Assembly (NCBI GenBank): GCA_028282005.1
Contig: JANQIV010000156.1
Span: forward strand, 1-40,507
Origin: Melioribacteraceae bacterium
Lineage (GTDB): Bacteria; Bacteroidota; Ignavibacteria; Ignavibacteriales; Melioribacteraceae
Length of the DNA: 40,507 nt
Direction of reading: 5' to 3'
The position numbers and the translations under genes were made by a program. Below the pieces are notes generated by a model that worked only from the letters and a program-made list of their open reading frames with translations, had not been told where the DNA came from and ran no database searches. Below are positions 8,511-36,811 of the stretch, one piece after another (positions within the stretch are counted from its first letter, which is position 1; each line of letters begins with the position of its first letter).

Positions 8511-8759
8511 ATGCTGGTACTATCAAGAAGAAATAATGAAAAAATTAGGATTGGCTCCAATATAGTGATCAGCATTTTAGGAGTTTCCGAAAATCATGTT
8601 AAGATAGGTATTGAAGCACCGAGTGATGTGAAAATTTTAAGAGAAGAAATTTACGAAACAGTTAAGAAAGAGACATTGGAAGCAACTAAGAAAAGCCGCG
8701 AAATATCTAAAGCCGATCTGTCTAAACTATCCATTAACAAAATTAAAAAGAAAAAGTAA
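8511..8759 (+). CDS. csrA: Translational regulator CsrA
   Basis: CsrA is a dimeric RNA-binding protein that blocks or alters translation by binding GGA loops in 5' leaders. The start MLVLSRR, GIEAPSDVKILREEIY with the RNA-contacting Arg44, and VKIGIEAP are all intact. At 82 residues it has a C-terminal extension of about 25 residues ending in the lysine-rich NKIKKKK. FliW-regulated CsrA proteins usually have a longer C-terminus than E. coli CsrA, so the length fits the neighbouring fliW; the very basic tail could also add RNA affinity (inference). Its stop overlaps the start of the next gene (TAATG). Confidence 0.96.
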   Translation: MLVLSRRNNEKIRIGSNIVISILGVSENHVKIGIEAPSDVKILREEIYETVKKETLEATKKSREISKADLSKLSINKIKKKK

Positions 8760-24265: not shown

Positions 24266-26389
24266 ATGCAAAAGCGTTCCGCTAAACCTGCTTTAATACT
24301 TTTTATTTTAGTTTTTTTTACTTCGATAAATTTATATGCTCAACAACCGCCTGAAGAGATAAAACACGGTAGATTTGATACCGGTAAAATGTGGGCATTT
24401 GATTTTCCCCCTGTTGAATACTTAGCAGAGGAATACGGATTCAAACCAGAAGAAAACTGGTTTGTTGATGTTCGCTTAGCTGCCCTTCGTATTCCTGGCT
24501 GTACTGCTTCTTTTGTTTCCGAAGACGGATTGATAATGACGAACAATCATTGTTCCGATGGCCCGAGAATGCGAATCCAAAAAGAAGGAGAAGATTTACG
24601 CAGCAACGGATACTACGCAGAATCACTTGAAGATGAAAGAAAAGTGGATGAATATTGGGCTGAACAGCTTGTTTTAATTGAAGATGTAACAGAAGAAATT
24701 AGAAAAGCTGTTGAAAGCGGAGATTCAAAAAAAGAGAAAGTAGAAAATAAAAACAAAAAGATAGCTGAGCTTGAAAAAAAATATAAAAAAGAAACCGGCT
24801 TAAGATGCAAAGTTTATGAGCTTTTTAACGGCGGTTATTATTCATTGTATGGTTTCAAAAGATATGAAGATATAAGAATGGTATTTATCCCTGAAGAAGC
24901 AATCGGTTATTTTGGTGGGGATTATGATAATTTTACTTATCCGCGTTACAATTTAGACTGCACATTTTACAGAATTTATGAAGATGGTAAACCGTTAAAA
25001 ACAGAACACTTTTTCAAATGGAGTAAAGATGGTGCCCAAAAAGATGAAGTTCTTTTTACGGTTGGAAATCCCGGAAGAACAAATAGATTAAAAACATTGG
25101 CACACTTAAAATTTTATAAAGAAGGTTATTACGGTAATTTAGCTTTCCTTTATGATGAATTGTACAATGGCTATGAAGAATTAAAAACACTTTATCCGGA
25201 AAGGGCAGAAGAATTTGAATTAATGAAAGTTGATATTGGTAATGCTCAAAAAGTTCTTACGAGATTAGACAAACACCTAGGCGATCCAAGTTTACTTGCG
25301 CGTAAAAAATCTTGGGAAAATGAATTAAAGATGGCTATTGAGGAAGATCCCGAATTAAAAGAAAAATATAGTGGTATTTGGGATACAATTGATAGAACTA
25401 GGGCTGAATTAACGGAATATCAGAAAAAAATAAATGCTTACAAACTGAGCAAGACATGGGATCCGCAATTTTATTTCATTCCGGTGAAATTAGTAGAACT
25501 TGCAAATGAATTGAATTTACCTGAAGAAAAAAGAAAAGAAGAATACCAGAATGAAAATCTTGAGAAAACTATAGCAAATATTTTCCCGGAAAAATTTGAC
25601 AATGCTATTGAGAAATTGAATTTGAGAATTTGGATTGATGCAGTTAAAAGAAATTTGGGTGATGAAGACAGCAAAACTAAGATACTGACAAACGGATTAT
25701 CTACGGATAAGGCTGTAGATTACTTGCTTTCAAAAACGATTGTTAATGATAAAGAGAAAGTTTTAGAATTAGCAAAAAAAGGAAGTGATGAAATTCTTAA
25801 TTCCAAAGATCCATTCATAAAATACGTAGCTGAAACGAGAGACGAATTAAAGGAATTGGAAGCAAAGAAAAAAGAAGTTGAAGATACTGAATCAGTTTAC
25901 GAAAACCTTCTTGGTTCACTTATGTATGATGTTTACGGAAATTCAATTCCGCCGGATGCTAACTTTACCTTGCGTTTAACTGACGGGGTATTAAAAACTT
26001 TTGAATACAACGGAACCATTGCGCAATTGTTTACAAACTTTTACGGCCTTTATGAAAGATATTATGGTTTTGAAAAACAATACCCATGGGATTTGCCCGA
26101 AAGATGGAAAAATCCTCCTGCAGAATTTGAATTATCAACTCCGTTTAATTTTGTATCCACACACGATGCAGTTGGCGGAAGTTCAGGCAGCCCGGTAATT
26201 AACAAAGAAAAAGAAATAGTTGGTTTAGCTTTTGACGGCAACATTAAAAGCATTATTGGCAACTTTATGTACATTGAAGAAGAAAACCGTAATGTTTCTG
26301 TCGCCTCTCAAGGGATGATTGAAGCTCTTAAGCATATTTATAAAGCGGATCGTTTAGTCAAAGAATTATTGAATGGAAAAATGAAATAA
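24266..26389 (+). CDS. S46 dipeptidyl-peptidase (DPP7-like), first copy
   Basis: S46 enzymes are periplasmic serine peptidases that release dipeptides from peptide N-termini. A signal peptide (residues 1-25, ending LYA before QQPPEE) fits. The catalytic triad is visible: His95 in MTNNHCSDG, Asp231 in NFTYPRYNLD and Ser640 in GGSSGSP. The position 18 residues after the Ser is Gly in AFDGN; in known enzymes Gly there goes with DPP7-type hydrophobic specificity and Arg with DPP11-type acidic specificity, so this is probably DPP7-like (inference). Length (707) is typical. TAGGAG precedes the ATG. It is a paralogue of the gene at 34179-36308. Confidence 0.94.
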   Translation: MQKRSAKPALILFILVFFTSINLYAQQPPEEIKHGRFDTGKMWAFDFPPVEYLAEEYGFKPEENWFVDVRLAALRIPGCTASFVSEDGLIMTNNHCSDGPRMRIQKEGEDLRSNGYYAESLEDERKVDEYWAEQLVLIEDVTEEIRKAVESGDSKKEKVENKNKKIAELEKKYKKETGLRCKVYELFNGGYYSLYGFKRYEDIRMVFIPEEAIGYFGGDYDNFTYPRYNLDCTFYRIYEDGKPLKTEHFFKWSKDGAQKDEVLFTVGNPGRTNRLKTLAHLKFYKEGYYGNLAFLYDELYNGYEELKTLYPERAEEFELMKVDIGNAQKVLTRLDKHLGDPSLLARKKSWENELKMAIEEDPELKEKYSGIWDTIDRTRAELTEYQKKINAYKLSKTWDPQFYFIPVKLVELANELNLPEEKRKEEYQNENLEKTIANIFPEKFDNAIEKLNLRIWIDAVKRNLGDEDSKTKILTNGLSTDKAVDYLLSKTIVNDKEKVLELAKKGSDEILNSKDPFIKYVAETRDELKELEAKKKEVEDTESVYENLLGSLMYDVYGNSIPPDANFTLRLTDGVLKTFEYNGTIAQLFTNFYGLYERYYGFEKQYPWDLPERWKNPPAEFELSTPFNFVSTHDAVGGSSGSPVINKEKEIVGLAFDGNIKSIIGNFMYIEEENRNVSVASQGMIEALKHIYKADRLVKELLNGKMK

Positions 26390-34122: not shown

Positions 34123-34178
34123 AAAACAACAATTATATAAATCTACCGTCCAATTACATGCAAATAATTGAGGAAAAA

Positions 34179-36308
34179 ATGATAAGAAAAATAATTCCAT
34201 TAGTTGTTTTAATATTGTTCATTCTAAGCAATACCAATTACTCTCAGCAGCATTTTTATACAGAATTAAACATTGACACAGTGAAGTTTTCATTAAATGA
34301 TTTTGGTAAAATGTGGACATTTGATGATTTGCCGATTGATTATTTTAAAGAAAAATATGGTTTTGAACCTGATAAAGATTGGATTGAGCATGTTCAAAAA
34401 TCAGCATTGCAATTCGGCAATGGATGTTCCGCAGCGTTTGTTTCACCAAATGGATTAATTATGACTAATCATCACTGTGGCAGAAATGGTTTGCGCAGTG
34501 TTGAAAAAGAAGGAGAGGATATTTTATTAAACGGTTTTTACGCAGAGATACTCAAAGATGAAAGAAATGTTGGCGGATTGTTTGTAGATCAGTTGATCTT
34601 TATAGAAGATGTAACAAGTGAAGTAGTTGAAGCAATTAATTCCGGCGAAACAGATGATGAGAAAGTCGCTAATAAAGAAGCAAAAATTGACGAACTAATT
34701 GAAAAATATAATGAAGATACCGATTTAAATTGCAGAGTTGTTACACTTTATAACGGTGGTAAATATTCACTTTATGGTTATAAAAGGTATGAAGATATAA
34801 GGCTTGTTATGGCACCTGAATTTCAAATTGCCTCAACCGGCTGGGACTGGGATAACTTTACTTATCCTCGTTATGAGTTGGATTTTGCTTTTTACAGAGC
34901 TTATGATGAAGATGGAAATCCGGTTAAATCGGATAATTTCTTTAAATGGAATCCGGAGGGGCCGTCTGAAGATGAAGTGATTTTTACTGTGGGCAGGCCT
35001 GGTAACACAGACAGACTTGTAACACTTGATGAACTTGAATATATAAAAGATGTAAACAGTAATTTGTTGTTGATCGCTAATTCAATTTATTACGCAAATT
35101 TTGAGTTGTTTGAAAAGTACCCTGAAAGGCAATCTGAATTACTCAACATTGTAATGGGTGCAGGAAATAGCCGTAAAGTATTTGCCAGCAGAATTGCGGC
35201 TTTGAATGATGAATATTTATTAGCAAAGAAAACAGATTTTGAAGAACAGTTAAAAGCAAAAGTAAAGGGCGACTCAAAATTAAATGAAAAGTATGGAAAG
35301 CTATTTGACGGTTTGAAAACAGCAATTAAAGAAAGGCGAAGCTTTGTTAAAGAATTATGGGCCTATAATGACATTAATTTTGGTAAGCCTGAATATTTCA
35401 AGTTAGCAAAAAAAGTGATCAAATATGCTGAACAACTAAAATTACCTGATGACGAAAGATCTATTGATTATAAAGATGAAAATTTGGAAAATACAATTGA
35501 GACAATTTTCCATTTAGAATTTGATAAAGAATTGCACAACAAACTATTACGTGGAAGATTAAACTACATTGCCAGTCTGCTCGGTAGTGAAAATGAAATT
35601 GTCAATAAAATGATGTCTGATAAAAGAGGTGAAGAAGTTGTAAAATATGTACTTGATAAATCACAAATAAGTACTGAAGAAAAACTAAAAGAGTTTTTGA
35701 AAAACGATCCTGATGAAATATTAAATTCAGATGATCCATTCATTTATTTTCTTCAATCATCAAAAGGAAAATTTAAAGAAATTGGAAACAGAGATGAAGA
35801 ATTAAAAAACACCGTTGAAGTATTAAATCAATTATTAGGTGAATTGATTTTTGACATTTACGGAGATAAAATTCCACCTGATGCTACTTCAACTTTGAGA
35901 TTGTCGGATGGTATGATAAAAGGTTTTGAATACAACGGAACAATAGCCCCGGGCAAAACAACTTTTTATGGTTTGTATGATAGGTATTATTCATTCAATA
36001 AAAAATTGTACCCTTGGGGTTTGACACCGAAATGGGAAAATCCACCGGCTGGTTTTGATTTAGCAAATCCAATTAATTTTGCTTCAACTAACGACATAGT
36101 TGGCGGCAACTCTGGAAGTTCAATAATTAATTCAAAAGGCGAAGTGATTGGATTGGCTTTTGACGGCAATATTGAAAGTATAGCTGGTGCTTATGCTTGG
36201 CTTCCGGCAGCAAATAGATGTATAGGTGTTGATTCAAAGGGATTAATTGAATCTTTAAAGCATGTTTATAAAACTGAAAGATTAGTAAAAGAACTTTTGG
36301 GTAATTAG
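34179..36308 (+). CDS. S46 dipeptidyl-peptidase (DPP7-like), second copy
   Basis: The start at 34179 is set by GAGG five bases upstream; an in-frame ATG at 34158 has no such site. The 709-residue protein has a signal peptide (1-22, ending NYS before QQHFYTE). Triad residues are His99 in MTNHHCGRNG, the Asp in NFTYPRYELD, and Ser645 in GGNSGSS. Gly follows 18 residues later in AFDGN, again DPP7-like. It resembles the first S46 gene along its whole length (KMWTFDDLPIDYFKEKYGFEPDKDW against KMWAFDFPPVEYLAEEYGFKPEENW), so the two come from a duplication, now with a signalling locus between them. The C-terminus (ESLKHVYKTERLVKELLG) is also shared. Confidence 0.94.
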   Translation: MIRKIIPLVVLILFILSNTNYSQQHFYTELNIDTVKFSLNDFGKMWTFDDLPIDYFKEKYGFEPDKDWIEHVQKSALQFGNGCSAAFVSPNGLIMTNHHCGRNGLRSVEKEGEDILLNGFYAEILKDERNVGGLFVDQLIFIEDVTSEVVEAINSGETDDEKVANKEAKIDELIEKYNEDTDLNCRVVTLYNGGKYSLYGYKRYEDIRLVMAPEFQIASTGWDWDNFTYPRYELDFAFYRAYDEDGNPVKSDNFFKWNPEGPSEDEVIFTVGRPGNTDRLVTLDELEYIKDVNSNLLLIANSIYYANFELFEKYPERQSELLNIVMGAGNSRKVFASRIAALNDEYLLAKKTDFEEQLKAKVKGDSKLNEKYGKLFDGLKTAIKERRSFVKELWAYNDINFGKPEYFKLAKKVIKYAEQLKLPDDERSIDYKDENLENTIETIFHLEFDKELHNKLLRGRLNYIASLLGSENEIVNKMMSDKRGEEVVKYVLDKSQISTEEKLKEFLKNDPDEILNSDDPFIYFLQSSKGKFKEIGNRDEELKNTVEVLNQLLGELIFDIYGDKIPPDATSTLRLSDGMIKGFEYNGTIAPGKTTFYGLYDRYYSFNKKLYPWGLTPKWENPPAGFDLANPINFASTNDIVGGNSGSSIINSKGEVIGLAFDGNIESIAGAYAWLPAANRCIGVDSKGLIESLKHVYKTERLVKELLGN

Positions 36309-36310
36309 CT

Positions 36311-36359
36311 AAAAAAGAAAACCCCTCGTCCCAAATTTACTGCTTGGAATGAGGGGTTT
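36311..36359 (-). terminator. Strong hairpin terminator (best on minus strand)
   Basis: AAACCCCTC (36319-36327) pairs with GAGGGGTTT (36351-36359), with additional inner pairing CCAA/TTGG. On the minus strand the stem is followed by TTTTCTTTTTT, a near-perfect termination tract. On the plus strand it lies 10 bp after the second S46 gene and could end that transcript too, but the T-tract there is interrupted. Confidence 0.75.
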
Positions 36360-36500
36360 AAATCCTCCTTTTCCGCAATACAGCGGCTTCAATACTCTAA
36401 GAGTGGTTAGTACTACTTTTCCACTCAGGTGATTTGCTCTTTTAATTTTTTTTCGGTTTTTTGAAAAACCCTCTTTAAAAAAGCTAAACGCTTCACCCGC
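36311..36500 (-). ncRNA. Candidate structured RNA of unknown class
   Basis: On the minus strand a promoter-like TTGACA-N16-TATTTT (36506-36533) is followed by about 190 bases that end in a strong terminator (36311-36359). Bases 36360-36435 fold as a three-way junction: P1 pairs 36360-36364 with 36431-36435 and 36367-36369 with 36427-36429; P2 is CCGC/GCGG (36373-36376 with 36383-36386); P3 is GAGTGG/CCACTC (36401-36406 with 36421-36426), flush with P1 so the two can stack. No protein frame covers it. It is not recognisable as 6S, SRP, tmRNA or RNase P. It could instead be a plus-strand 3' UTR or a leader of the DUF1289 gene. Confidence 0.4.
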
Positions 36501-36505
36501 TTTCT

Positions 36506-36533
36506 AAAATAAAAATTGACGACAGAATGTCAA
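36506..36533 (-). promoter_or_regulatory. Promoter-like TTGACA/TATTTT
   Basis: On the minus strand a perfect TTGACA, 16 bases and TATTTT precede the candidate RNA, giving a predicted start near 36499. The -10 box matches TATAAT at 4 of 6 positions. In AT-rich DNA such matches arise by chance, so the weight comes from its position upstream of the structured segment and terminator. Confidence 0.35.
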
Positions 36534-36631
36534 ATTAATTTTTGATGGTCCGAAAAAATAATTTCGGAATTGAATTTTTGTAAATTTATTGTTGTTAAAA
36601 TATTACATTAATAAACTTTTTGATAAATATC

Positions 36632-36811
36632 ATGATTAAAACTCCATGTAATAATATTTGTGAGCTTGATAAAGAAAAAGATTTATGTAAAGGATGTTTT
36701 AGAACTTCGGAAGAAATCACCAAATGGATTTTTTTCGAAGACCACGAGAGAGAAGAAATAATAAATTCTTTAGAGAAGAGGAAAAAAGAATACCTGAAAG
36801 CGAACGATTAA
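36632..36811 (+). CDS. DUF1289-family small cysteine-rich protein
   Basis: The 59-residue protein has the DUF1289 pattern: a start MIKTPCNNICELD, then LCKGCFRTSEEITKW, with four Cys in two pairs (C-x3-C and C-x2-C) and a helical Lys/Glu-rich tail. Members are small, probably metal-binding proteins of unknown function. The ATG at 36632 fits the family start; a TTG at 36620 would add four residues. It stands alone on the plus strand between the structured region and the convergent transporter operon, whose last stop lies 8 bp away. Confidence 0.85.
   Translation: MIKTPCNNICELDKEKDLCKGCFRTSEEITKWIFFEDHEREEIINSLEKRKKEYLKAND

Follow-up and report, generated by a model that had tools for sequence, protein, structure and literature searches.

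An uncatalogued, structurally conserved small RNA family predicted in the Melioribacteraceae (Ignavibacteria)

GibS, an intergenic sRNA of Bacteroides, is 145 nt long and carries a mainly single-stranded, conserved 5' seed (PMC7366714). From neighbouring phyla, Weinberg et al. (2010) described the candidate RNAs Chlorobi-1 (RF01696), Chlorobi-RRM (RF01697), and Bacteroidales-1 (RF01693) (PMC2864571). For the Melioribacteraceae and the Ignavibacteria, our literature search found no sRNA study. Here, we analyzed a 40,507-nt stretch of DNA from a Melioribacteraceae bacterium (contig JANQIV010000156.1, positions 1 to 40,507; hereafter, the window), and comparison with related genomes indicates that it encodes a member of an uncatalogued, structurally conserved sRNA family, which is predicted to be confined to one family of the Ignavibacteria.

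The RNA is predicted on the minus strand of a 323-base gap that opens at 36309, directly after a peptidase S46 gene (34158-36308, plus strand), and is closed by a DUF1289 gene (plus strand, from 36620 or 36632 to 36811). A first-pass annotation had described this gap as free of genes, and no long ORF was found between S46 and DUF1289. The window has a G+C content of 33%, and the genome is AT-rich. Elsewhere in the window are a second peptidase S46 paralogue (24266-26389; 46% identity between the two) and a csrA gene (8511-8666, plus strand; PF02599, 83 bits). A further stem with a T-rich tail, TCCGAAA...TTTCGGA, lies on the plus strand at 36549-36568, between the sRNA promoter and the DUF1289 gene.

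Both signals that the first-pass annotation had named at the two ends of the RNA are present (Table 1). The promoter-like TTGACA and TATTTT elements are separated by a spacer of 16 nt. Three promoter-like matches were found against 3.1 expected, and a single site is thus no rarer than chance. An inverted repeat, TTGAC-N8-GTCAA (36516-36533), lies over the -35 element as a possible operator, and was not seen in most homologs. The strong terminator, with the T-rich tail TTTTCTTTTTT at 36321-36311 on the minus strand, folds with z = -4.1, and is not listed by a simple terminator scan. The promoter spacing and the terminator together predict a transcript of 189 nt, close to the approximately 190 bases proposed earlier. 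This predicted transcript folds at z = -4.3, and the transcript minus its terminator folds at z = -2.6 (11 of 500 shuffles). Because the promoter match is at chance level and the z value without the terminator is only -2.6, the single-sequence fold and the promoter match are suggestive, not decisive.

Table 1. Predicted elements of the RNA (window coordinates) and tRNA-Ser(UGA) loci downstream of its homologs (coordinates within each locus)
Feature	Position	Strand	Basis or remark
-35 element TTGACA	36528..36533	-	motif match; TTG[AT] kept in 18/18 homologs
-10 element TATTTT	36506..36511	-	TAYGTT type in many homologs
Predicted sRNA transcript, 189 nt	36311..36499	-	5' end ~36499 inferred from promoter spacing
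P2, long 5' hairpin	36426..36499	-	arms 36499-36493 / 36432-36426; covariation in P2 and P2a
P2a (short) and P2b (variable) stems	36483-36475 / 36445-36437	-	
P2c, apical hairpin GGGUUU...AAACC	36455..36470	-	A4 invariant columns and pair counts
Conserved strand CCGAAnAA	36457-36448 region	-	
P3, hairpin GAGUGG/CCACUC	36401..36426	-	A2: 4/5 pairs changed on both sides; present in MFE folds
P4, hairpin CCGC/GCGG	36373..36386	-	compensatory change in G015: UCAC/GUGG
AAGGAGG linker, purine-rich, Shine-Dalgarno-like	36364..36370	-	joins P4 to terminator; similar motif in 14/18 homologs
Intrinsic terminator	36311..36359	-	stem 36359-36344 / 36335-36319 and T-rich tail
tRNA-Ser(UGA)	L214:6751-6837		
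tRNA-Ser(UGA)	L217:7989-8081		
tRNA-Ser(UGA)	L219:7696-7784		
tRNA-Ser(UGA)	L223:60-149		
tRNA-Ser(UGA)	L225:3483-3571		

BLASTN against 97 relatives yielded no clear homolog and mostly poly-A noise, because A-rich stretches dominate; matches within coding sequence (L004, L012, and L021) were rejected as chance. The gene neighbourhood did not lead to the RNA either, the gap after S46/DUF1289 not being conserved in relatives, and in 61 named contigs the covariance model R2 described below gave no match close to S46. When the entire gap of 323 bases served as the nhmmer query against the retrieved loci, long matches were obtained in genomes G009 (E = 1.3e-10) and G015 (E = 4.9e-10). A third match, in G052, was weaker (E = 0.0034), and none of the three positions is related to another. 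A covariance model (R1) built from these three sequences and that of the window detected the RNA in 18 of the family's 79 genomes, each with a single strong copy (E values from 1e-28 to 9e-10), and scored the window RNA at 117.6 bits (E = 1.7e-25). The second model, R2, which was built from a plain MAFFT alignment of the P2-P3 core of the 18 homologs, recovered the same 18 carriers. Low-scoring R1 matches (L183-L187 and L190) were not accepted as members, and an extra weak R2 match in G044 (34.6 bits), lying inside a PurM-like coding frame identified by eye, was rejected.

The mean pairwise identity of the homologs is 61% (range, 48-89%), and all 18 are intergenic, none of them overlapping an ORF of at least 90 aa. 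When covariance-model searches were extended to the order (164 genomes), the class (391), and the phylum (395), no member turned up outside the family; searches over more than 40 genomes used stricter filters, and diverged members may therefore be missed. Plasmids, phages, and viral contigs gave no match. The homologs settle what single-sequence folding had left moderately convincing, and for this reason we judge the gene to be real: a conserved small-RNA gene almost certainly exists on the minus strand at this locus.

The stems were then evaluated for covariation in two alignments. In A2, four sequences were aligned by hand in structural register, which was preserved through MAFFT by N padding and by trimming some bases from loops. 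In this alignment, whose register was set with knowledge of the structure, 98.3% of the cells were paired and 9 of 29 pairs were changed on both sides, whereas in the controls with the partners slid by 1-3 columns 39-51% of the cells were paired and 0-2 pairs were changed on both sides. The terminator stem columns were invariant across the four hand-registered rows. For A4, the MAFFT core alignment, the covariation score was 0.283, compared to about 0.06-0.16 when slid (slid range, 0.083-0.160). Pairing in this alignment reached 94% for P2, 90% for P2a, 92% for P2c, and 81% for P3, the lower value for P3 being partly due to arms misaligned by one base, and double changes were seen in P2, P2a, and P3. 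Relative to column shuffles, the covariation score and the number of double-change cells were in excess; the number of pairs with double changes and the further pair types were not. In addition, RNAalifold, run without a supplied structure, recovered P2 and P2a with double changes. The results from A2, A4, and RNAalifold indicate that the stems covary across homologous intergenic regions.

The predicted start (36499) is the first base of P2, which pairs CGGGUGA with UCACCUG in the window and YRGAUGA with UCAUCYG in the homologs. P2 contains an internal 3x3 purine loop, which reads GGA/GAA in most homologs. The 5' hairpin further comprises the short stem P2a (ACYU/ARGU type), the variable stem P2b, and the apical hairpin P2c, after which the conserved strand CCGAAnAA follows. 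In the MFE folds of most homologs, P2, P3, P4, and the terminator form separate hairpins. The three-way junction with stackable P1 and P3 proposed in the first-pass annotation is therefore unsupported, since the homologs show a row of hairpins instead. The sole closing P1 that could be reconstructed, AGCGG/CCGCU, has an ensemble probability of ~0.002, overlaps P2, and costs ~5 kcal/mol, and no consistent counterpart was found in the homologs. In the MFE fold of the interval originally annotated, the closing helix takes its 5' strand from the -10 box itself, a sequence upstream of the start site and outside the transcript.

The promoter match, at chance level in the window alone, gains weight from the homologs: TTG[AT] is located 34-35 bases upstream of the first P2 helix base in 18 of 18, and a TA-rich -10 element also precedes P2. 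The order of promoter, RNA, and terminator noted earlier, together with its spacing, is conserved among the homologs. No Rfam 15 family matched the window at its gathering threshold, and at the window RNA and the homolog loci scanned this RNA received only sub-threshold chance matches. Anti-hemB, at 19-22 bits against a cut-off of 49.5, matched the terminator-containing 3' half and was rejected. The neighbouring tRNA genes gave genuine Rfam matches, separate from this RNA. The earlier impression that the RNA resembles no known class thus holds for Rfam, and with its covarying stems and conserved promoter and terminator the proposal that the minus strand encodes a new structured RNA is borne out.

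The neighbours of the RNA differ between genera, and the downstream genes are mutually unrelated. In the window, the S46 peptidase gene lies downstream on the opposite strand, and opposite-strand neighbours were also found in G036, G002, G011, and G018. A same-strand gene follows within ~110 bp in G009, G052, G099, and G020. A few local sets of neighbours recur. Upstream, DUF1028 genes were found in G052, G011, and G036, and one gene further in G099 (by similar start), and a 1087-aa BNR/sortilin-type protein is encoded in G041, G053, and G018. An SBP/SLT transglycosylase gene is near the RNA in G031 and G005 and, by similarity, in G025. In G011, G097, G041, G018, and G046, a tRNA-Ser(UGA) gene in the same orientation follows the RNA at ~27-200 bp, and this site is possibly the ancestral location of the RNA.

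In G099, the RNA is located between a methyltransferase-like and a recD2-like gene (named by eye from the sequences). In G017 and G040, which share a genus with the carriers G052 and G099, the methyltransferase-like stop overlaps the recD2-like start, leaving an empty site (L230 compared to L229 and L231). Since the one gene runs straight into the other, the whole cassette is absent there. These empty sites fit a dispensable RNA gene, and the pattern of neighbours fits a gene of long standing that has been inherited vertically, with some moves to other loci and some losses.

The RNA has its own promoter and intrinsic terminator, is intergenic, and has no fixed downstream gene, as for stand-alone bacterial sRNAs. 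We consider it probable that it is a stand-alone regulatory sRNA that acts in trans, by base-pairing or protein binding. We infer that transcription would start at a housekeeping-type promoter belonging to the gene and would end at the intrinsic terminator. The folded 5' domain, with the P2 purine loop and the CCGAAnAA strand, would then stabilize the RNA or serve in recognition. Contacts with mRNAs or a protein would be made by a segment left exposed, either the loop of P3 or the AAGGAGG linker. No conserved classical antisense seed was obvious among the homologs. Since the best-conserved bases lie in the structured P2 domain, protein or ligand binding would also fit.

A less likely reading is that the RNA serves as a scaffold or decoy in an RNA-protein complex, in which the 5' domain would sequester or guide a protein with no mRNA pairing. 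The most conserved unpaired bases, the GGA/GAA loop and CCGAAnAA, indeed lie within the P2 domain, and GGA triplets are enriched (79, compared to 50.5 +/- 6.1 in shuffles). Because of this enrichment and of the csrA gene in the window, titration of CsrA was examined. However, CsrA, the obvious GGA-binder and the only partner compared, does not co-occur with the RNA: csrA is found in 15 of 18 carriers and in 48 of 61 non-carriers (63 of the 79 family genomes; Fisher p = 1.0), and was not found in the carriers G015 (98% complete), G025, and G005. A CsrA sponge is accordingly not supported. Somewhat less likely still, the 5' domain, with the covarying P2/P2a around the GGA/GAA purine loop and the GGGUUU...AAACCGAAnAA apex, might represent a new functional fold, either a catalytic RNA or a module that binds a specific protein or ligand, stand-alone and limited to one bacterial family.

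A cis-acting riboswitch, leader, or attenuator of a neighbouring gene is improbable. The RNA does end in a terminator, and the four genomes with a nearby same-strand gene would suit such a role, but the downstream genes differ, are unrelated to one another, and often lie on the other strand, as in the window and in the four genomes with opposite-strand neighbours; no set of related genes consistently follows the RNA in the same orientation. That the transcript serves as a very small mRNA, or as a dual-function RNA, is slightly more doubtful again. A near-leaderless AUG at bases 4-6, which is in the same place in 17 of 18 homologs (GUG in the window), opens a micro-ORF, MRNL.... However, a peptide is unlikely because the frame varies from 3 to 33 codons and because replacements in codons 2-3 (MRNL to MWSL) are compensated in the opposite arm, so that structure explains the conservation of the start region; among the 18 homologs, neither ORF length nor the peptide after residue 4 is conserved. 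Ordinary intergenic DNA, with a bidirectional S46 terminator and AT-rich fold noise, could account for the non-terminator z of only -2.6 and the chance-level promoter match, but is refuted by the homologs, which are full-length, occur at unrelated loci, and have helices that covary; it is very improbable indeed.

The analysis thus provides a well-supported candidate for a new sRNA family in the Melioribacteraceae, which is directly testable by virtue of its conserved fold, predicted start, presence/absence pairs in one genus, and covariance model. It also illustrates how profile search and covariation together can decide a case in which the folding of one sequence gives weak evidence.

Among known RNAs, 6S RNA (RF00013) likewise stands alone, is present in one copy, and measures about 180-190 nt; in contrast, the window RNA lacks a closing 5'-3' stem and a central bubble, and the best 6S match in the genome, at 12.4 bits, is elsewhere than this locus. 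CsrB/RsmZ-type CsrA sponges share the GGA enrichment, and csrA is present in the same genome and even the same window, whereas each RNA here has only 3-6 GGA and its presence is independent of CsrA. The Weinberg candidates are also candidate structured RNAs, of neighbouring phyla (Chlorobi and Bacteroidetes) and with unknown function, although all three are in Rfam, and neither the RNA of the window nor any homolog scanned is matched by an Rfam model. The closest in kind are GibS and other intergenic Bacteroides sRNAs, which are stand-alone, have their own promoter and terminator, and belong to one lineage within the wider Bacteroidota (PMC7366714). Judged by its description, GibS differs in that the window RNA is ~189 nt long and has its 5' end locked in the most conserved helix. 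On these comparisons, the RNA is best described as a predicted new family of a known kind of RNA, the intergenic sRNA.
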